From positions 1 through 64,000 of the forward strand of contig NZ_LOHP01000060.1 in assembly GCF_001482305.1 (NCBI RefSeq): a stretch of DNA of 64,000 nt. Direction: 5' to 3'. Below are positions 1 through 1,215 of this stretch, piece after piece. Numbering within the stretch: the stretch's first letter is position 1; each line of letters opens with the position of its first letter. Both the position numbers and the translations under genes were made by a program. Source of the stretch: Leucobacter sp. G161. GTDB taxonomy: Bacteria; Actinomycetota; Actinomycetes; Actinomycetales; Microbacteriaceae. The notes under the pieces are model-generated. The model had not been told where the DNA came from. It did not search any database and saw only the letters and a program-made list of their open reading frames with translations.

Positions 1-371
1 GTGACCTGCGCTTTGTCGGCCGCGCCGTACCCGGTCACCGCCGCCTTCACTTCGTTCGGCGTGTACATCGCGACAGGAATACCGCGGGCCTGCGCCAGGT
101 ACACGACGACCCCGCTGATCTGGGCGACGCCCATCCCACTTGGCAGGTTCCGCCGCGCGAACACGCGCTGGATCGCAATGGCGTCGGGGCGACCGCCGTC
201 AAACAACCGCTCAAGTGAGGTTCCGAGCTGGTGCAGGCGCTGCGGCAGCTCCCCGCCGGCCGGGCTCGTGAGTACCTCGACGTGTTCGAAGGTGAGCTTT
301 CGGGATCCCTCTGAGCTCACCACACCGACGCCAAGACGTGTCAGCCCGGGGTCTATTCCGATTACACGCAT
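1..371 (-). CDS. ruvC: Holliday junction endodeoxyribonuclease RuvC, N-terminal 123 residues (partial)
   Basis: RuvC resolves Holliday junctions with RuvAB during recombinational repair. The N-terminus reads MRVIGIDPGLTRLGVG, giving the first catalytic Asp at residue 7, and the later stretch NEVKAAVTGYGAADKAQV is typical of actinobacterial RuvC. The C-terminal third, with the last acidic residues, lies beyond position 1. Odd point: at residue 68, where the family has the second catalytic residue (Glu, as in AIEQVF of Escherichia coli or AIERVF of mycobacteria), the codon is CAG, giving AIQRVF. The gene follows yebC on the same strand, the usual actinobacterial order, with ruvA and ruvB expected next. 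The family call is firm; whether the enzyme is active is open. Confidence 0.93.
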   Translation of the reverse strand, partial: MRVIGIDPGLTRLGVGVVSSEGSRKLTFEHVEVLTSPAGGELPQRLHQLGTSLERLFDGGRPDAIAIQRVFARRNLPSGMGVAQISGVVVYLAQARGIPVAMYTPNEVKAAVTGYGAADKAQV

Positions 372-450: not shown

Positions 451-1215
451 TTACTCGTCGTTTGCGAGTTCCGCCTGGACCTCGTCGGAGAGGTCGAAGT
501 TCGCGTAGACGTTTTGCACGTCATCGCTGTCCTCGAGAGCGTCGATGATGCGGAATACCTTGCGCGCGGTGTCTGCGTCGATGTCGACCTTGAGGTTCGG
601 CACGAACTCGGCCTCGGCCGAGTCGTAGTCGATCCCGGCGTCGACGAGCGCGCCACGGGCCGCTGCGAGCTCGGAGGCGTCAGTGATGACCTCGAAGGCC
701 TCGCCGTTCGGGGTCGCGTTGACCTCTTCGGCTCCGGCTTCGAGTACGGCCATGAGCACGTCATCCTCGGTCGTGCCCTCTGCGGGAACGGTGATGACGC
801 CCTTGCGCTCAAAGTTGTACGCAACGCTGCCGGGGTCGGCCAAGGTTGCTCCGTTGCGGCTGAGCGCCGTGCGCACCTCAGCTGCCGCGCGGTTCTTGTT
901 GTCCGTGAGGCACTCGACCATGAGGGCTACGCCGTTCGGGCCGTAGGCCTCGTACATGGTGCTGAAGTACTCGATCGACTCGCCGGTGAGGCCAGCGCCG
1001 CGCTTGATTGCGCGATCGATGTTGTCCCCGGGTACCGAGTTCTTCTTGGCCTTGTGTACGGCCTCCGACAGTGCCGGGTTGCCAGCCATGTCGGGCCCGC
1101 CGATGCGAGCGGCGACCTCGATCACCTTGATGTACTTTGCAAACGCCTTCGCGCGACGCGAGTCGAGAATTGCCTTCTTGTGCTTAGTGGTTGCCCACTT
1201 GGAGTGTCCGGCCAC
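451..1215 (-). CDS. YebC/PmpR family regulatory protein
   Basis: The protein has 254 residues and is full length for the family. It starts with the diagnostic [20 protein letters not shown] and carries the internal [18 protein letters not shown] segment. The family is cytoplasmic; members have been described as DNA-binding transcription factors and, more recently, as ribosome-associated factors easing polyproline stalling, so the role here is not settled. The start is GTG, preceded at good spacing by GAAGGAG. It lies between the HIT-family gene (71 bases upstream) and ruvC (79 bases downstream), probably within one thrS-to-ruvC transcription unit. Confidence 0.95.

Follow-up and report, generated by a model that had tools for sequence, protein, structure and literature searches.

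A glutamine codon at the catalytic glutamate position of a ruvC fragment at a contig end of Leucobacter sp. G161

The window, the whole stretch of 64,000 nucleotides that was analysed, starts at base 1 of contig C60 (309,229 bases) in a draft assembly of 109 contigs and 3.55 Mb. At its very edge lies a ruvC reading frame that runs off the contig past codon 123, and upstream of ruvC stands a gene that we take to be of the YebC type. The features discussed here are as follows.

3..371, minus strand: ruvC fragment, codons 1-123, with its ATG at 371 and a match to PF02075, truncated by the contig end
168..170, minus strand: codon 68, CAG (Gln), Glu in all relatives read
150..155, minus strand: codons 73-74, CGG CGG (Arg Arg), Gln Gln in the five closest relatives
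135..137, minus strand: codon 79, GGG (Gly), Val in 98/98 genus and family sequences read
102..104, minus strand: codon 90, GTG (Val), Met in 53/53 other genus sequences, variable in the family
39..41, minus strand: codon 111, GCG (Ala), Ser in the five closest relatives
1..194, no strand: contig tip, holding seven of the eight window-specific nonsynonymous changes (against five relatives)
451..1215, minus strand: upstream neighbour gene, 95-96% protein identity to three relatives
C60:144387-144863: RuvB, profile match over the cut-off
C60:145355-145534: RuvA, profile match over the cut-off
C60:130237-130638: RuvX, profile match over the cut-off

The fragment matches the PF02075 profile at 100.5 bits (cut-off 22.2) over profile positions 1-119 of 148, and a PDB search returned matches to seven sequences named RuvC. 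Against the NCBIfam equivalogs NF000711 and TIGR00228, the protein, truncated by the contig end, reaches 99 bits (cut-off 163) and 64.5 bits (cut-off 100.65), respectively. Neither a stop nor a frameshift was found within the 123 codons. The first catalytic carboxylate, Asp7, is present, as is the motif NEVKAAVTG, and the C-terminal catalytic pair (D141/D144 in the numbering of the relatives; D138 and D141 in E. coli) falls beyond the contig end. The second catalytic carboxylate, a Glu corresponding to E. coli E66, is Gln in the deposited sequence.

The initial annotation had claimed both this Gln and its placement on the catalytic Glu, and both are borne out. Window positions 170-168 read CAG, and translation of the minus strand in the frame of the ATG at 371 gives AIQRVFARRN for residues 66-75. 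In the PDB alignments, codon 68 falls on the catalytic Glu, which is Glu in native Thermus RuvC (4ep4) and Gln in 4ld0; passages in PMC3864405 and PMC3834835 name E. coli E66 as one of four catalytically critical residues. The genus set comprised 54 genomes, the window's own included, with one RuvC match each; the alignment with relatives, which the annotation had put forward for its own refutation, returned Glu in all 53 others, five of them at 86-89% protein identity. A modified active site shared by the lineage, as the annotation had also proposed, is thus excluded at genus level as far as the aligned sequences go. Glu likewise occupies the position in 45/45 other family genomes read (249 searched and 245 with a match; those read were the 30 top-scoring loci plus 15 others chosen from the hits) and in 80/80 wider records (the best 80 of 363 confirmed in the species collection). 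Both of these sets are biased toward well-scoring sequences, and the wider records, which include four from Leucobacter, overlap with the genus set. By RuvC, the named relatives nearest to the window belong to Leucobacter. A strict-pattern motif scan missed 5/61 loci, and the Glu counts were not taken from it.

The substitution at codon 68 has company. Relative to the five closest relatives (86-89% identity over 123 residues), Q73R, Q74R, V79G, M90V and S111A are found in the window only, and at the variable codons 40, 44 and 60 the window also differs from all five. Q73 occurs in 98/98 genus and family sequences read, and residue 74 is variable; residue 111 is Gln in 48/53 genus sequences and Ala in 43/45 family sequences. 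Among the best 80 of 363 wider records, residue 74 is Arg in 10/80 and Lys in 39/80, Gly stands at residue 79 in 3/80, and Ala at 111 is common. Fifty-six columns are invariant in the 53 genus members, and the window breaks four of them (68, 73, 79 and 90), all within codons 68-90, the changed bases spanning window positions 170 to 104. When each of the 53 members was left out in turn, 46 broke no invariant column, six broke one and one broke two. When the family sequences read are added to those of the genus, 27 invariant columns remain, three of which are broken in the window. The split between 0/20 invariant columns broken before codon 68 and 4/36 from codon 68 on is not significant alone (p 0.29).

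This cluster bears on the claim that the rest of the visible protein is normal and that the gene is therefore not decayed. Asp7 and NEVKAAVTG are indeed intact, but Q73R, V79G and M90V break three further invariant columns within codons 68-90, and with four genus-invariant columns broken in that stretch the conclusion drawn from a normal remainder is unsupported. Against three relatives, ruvC has 10 window-specific nonsynonymous codons to 37 synonymous ones, and this ratio of 0.27 is ordinary among 27 window genes (range 0.07-1.59). Its synonymous divergence is high, with 37/116 conserved codons compared with 37/251 in the upstream neighbour gene. In the first 20 ruvC codons (window 312-366), we noted many synonymous codons absent from the five closest relatives, which largely agree there.

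The changes also share a direction. Where the five relatives agree, the window has eight nonsynonymous changes, of which six are A/T to G on the coding strand, the strand that points out of the contig; four of these six are A to G. The codon 68 change, G to C on the coding strand, lies outside this pattern. Against three relatives, 7/16 window-specific nonsynonymous changes in ruvC are A/T to G on the coding strand, compared with 113/901 in 26 other window genes; the binomial p values against the latter, about 9e-5 (6/8) and 0.002 (7/16), overstate the case, the test having been framed after the pattern was seen. In the first 180 bases, the A/T to G share is 5/6 at the window tip and 5/34 at seven other contig tips (Fisher p 0.002). 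The window tip has nonsynonymous and synonymous changes in a ratio of 6:2 over these bases, against 2:8 over the next 180 (p 0.054).

For the control tips, 40 tips or short contigs were fetched, of which 34 were readable; for ten that carry a long open frame, the first 240 bases were searched in three relatives. Comparison was possible for seven, with three relatives in four cases and with two in the others; the three left out comprised one without a match, one matched in a single relative and one with short matches in two. Lower-scoring further matches to the control tips were set aside as likely paralogues. Among conserved codons, genome-specific nonsynonymous ones numbered 22/286 in bases 0-180, 15/339 in bases 180-360 and 61/1032 in bases 360-900 of the seven control tips, and 6/57, 0/49 and 4/139 in the matching bins of the window tip, there against five relatives. 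A general proneness of contig tips to error is unsupported by these figures, the seven controls having no clear excess of changes; since control tips are not error-rich as a rule, the window tip would have to be special if errors are the cause, and in its A/T to G share it does stand apart. One control, the tip of contig C1 (G000:C1:1-180), has specific nonsynonymous changes in 4/11 comparable codons near its end, with two relatives compared.

In relatives, ruvC is followed by recO. The gap between them measured 5 to 972 bases in 8/12 loci in which recO was located by script; among close relatives, it was 41, 68, 193 and 273 bases, and 2,192 bases in G018, and the longer gaps may hold other genes. 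The great variation of this stretch among close relatives, from 68 to 2,192 bases (L145, L148, L166, L142), is an observation in its own right, as are the short direct repeats seen by eye in that of G003 (L145). In the window's genome, recO is on contig C88, which ends 343 bases before the recO start, and the outer 315-333 bases of that end do not align to relatives; local alignment of this outer end with the ruvC end of six relatives was no better than with shuffles. Searches of the assembly for the C-terminal half of RuvC, with G018 DNA from the yebC end to past recO and with the 75-residue C-terminal part of G019 RuvC (best E 0.26), did not find it; C53:8048-8097 gave a weak match in the DNA search (E 3e-4) and does not recur in the protein search, which had five hits. 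Six short contigs consist of N in the assembly and could contain the lost C-terminal end, so that little follows from the failure to find it. An insertion in ruvC, considered when the outer C88 end gave only short weak matches, was set aside, since relatives also differ from one another in the stretch before recO. No 31-mer from the first 300 bases of C60 recurs in the other readable tips, which suggests that the contig starts at a dead end of low coverage and not at a repeat boundary.

Most probably, we consider, the fragment represents an ordinary Leucobacter ruvC with several base-call errors in the outermost 190 or so bases of a contig that breaks off within the gene. Assembly would have stopped at codon 124, shortly before a recO spacer that differs in length and sequence among relatives; coverage of the tip would then come from a small number of low-quality reads in one direction, and A or T bases may have been miscalled as G on the outward-pointing strand. 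The observations behind this account are the contig end, the Glu shared by every relative read, the clustering at invariant sites and the A/T to G bias, and from the clustering and direction of the odd changes in the sequence, base-calling errors appear the likeliest cause. Two-colour Illumina chemistry is described, in a passage of PMC13218037, as giving an excess of T>G calls (an artefact of the T>G/A>C type). This is a precedent for part of the A/T to G pattern only, and four of the six changes, being A>G, count against the error account, as do the G>C change at codon 68, the lack of a clear excess at the seven other tips and the open frame over 123 codons. Some of the changed residues are, moreover, normal elsewhere (Arg-Arg at 73-74, Arg or Lys at 74, Gly at 79, Ala at 111), and the Arg-Arg pair, which recurs in the aligned Deinococcus RuvC, is an instance of a change that does not look like damage. 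Among the three readings offered by the initial annotation, a base error at codon 68 fits best, as one of several clustered changes at the contig tip and not as the lone G-to-C error that had been envisaged.

It is unlikely, in our estimate, that the changes are real and that ruvC is losing its function in this strain, by neutral decay or by a disruption near the contig break, with other routes handling the junctions. The clustering at invariant sites speaks for this reading, and both the C-terminal 75 residues not found in the assembly and the unalignable C88 end before recO are consistent with it. Decay would, however, have spared the frame of any stop or frameshift, kept the nonsynonymous to synonymous ratio within the range of the other window genes and left every invariant column intact in codons 1-67, and it leaves the A/T to G bias unexplained. 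The variable length of the stretch before recO and the N-only contigs weaken what the missing end and the C88 tip might say in its favour.

We regard as improbable a real and stable RuvC in which Gln and the nearby Arg, Gly and Val changes leave an enzyme that binds junctions without cleaving them, another nuclease doing the cutting. Such a protein has been made, the Thermus E70Q variant with Gln at the homologous position being inactive yet still forming the junction complex according to a passage in PMC3834835 (4ld0, compared with native 4ep4). Deinococcus RuvC E67A has likewise lost cleavage, as stated in part of PMC9601230, and from the two mutants a real Gln would predict a binding-only enzyme. 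Gln, however, was found in none of the relatives read, and a RuvC of this kind beside RuvA and RuvB would be expected to hinder repair. Of the second resolvase that the annotation had suggested seeking, RusA gave no match in the window's genome, and the candidate found, RuvX/YqgF, also matched in all ten bacteria among 14 control genomes; the search covered these two.

The gene order ruvCAB is known from other actinobacteria. Here, about 144 kb separate ruvC (window 3-371) from ruvB and ruvA (G000:C60:144387-145534), and ruvC and ruvB are also more than 100 kb apart in 14 single-contig genomes of the genus. Loss of the partners of ruvC, considered when recO was seen to follow it, was dismissed, RuvA and RuvB both being present on C60 about 144-145 kb away.

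Least credible of all is a catalytically active RuvC in which Gln, aided by the nearby changes, replaces the Glu ligand: passages of PMC9601230 describe His as tolerated at another of the four catalytic positions in Thermus and Deinococcus, and Arg-Arg at 73-74 has its Deinococcus counterpart, but E67A abolished activity in Deinococcus, E70Q is inactive in Thermus, and all sequences read have Glu.

A literature search for RuvC E66Q returned no report, which does not prove that none is in print, and the best 10 of 35 literature matches contained no natural inactive or pseudogene RuvC, likewise no proof of absence. As far as the consulted portions of PMC12691675 and PMC4224334 go, these papers report selection on ruv genes and not a Glu-to-Gln change. 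When a catalytic residue appears to be lost within a few hundred bases of the end of a draft contig, relatives and reads should be compared first. If the Gln is real, nature would have produced an equivalent of the engineered inactive RuvC, and one would have to ask by which nuclease junctions are resolved in the strain.

Among known systems, RuvC of the five closest genus genomes resembles the window protein over its whole visible length, including Asp7 and NEVKA.VTG, and the yebC-type neighbour is common to the window and the three of them that were checked; unlike the window, all five have Glu68, Gln73, Gln74, Val79, Met90 and Ser111. Thermus thermophilus RuvC E70Q (PDB 4ld0) shares the Gln at the catalytic position, but, as a passage of PMC3834835 indicates, it is an inactive variant engineered for the junction complex, unlike the window's deposited sequence. 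According to the same source, Thermus R76, the Arg aligned with residue 74, lies near the exchange point and may extend into the opening of the junction, so that Arg at 74, too, need not look like damage. The best PDB match, Deinococcus radiodurans RuvC (7w8d), has Arg-Arg at positions 73-74 like the window RuvC and, unlike it, keeps the catalytic Glu.
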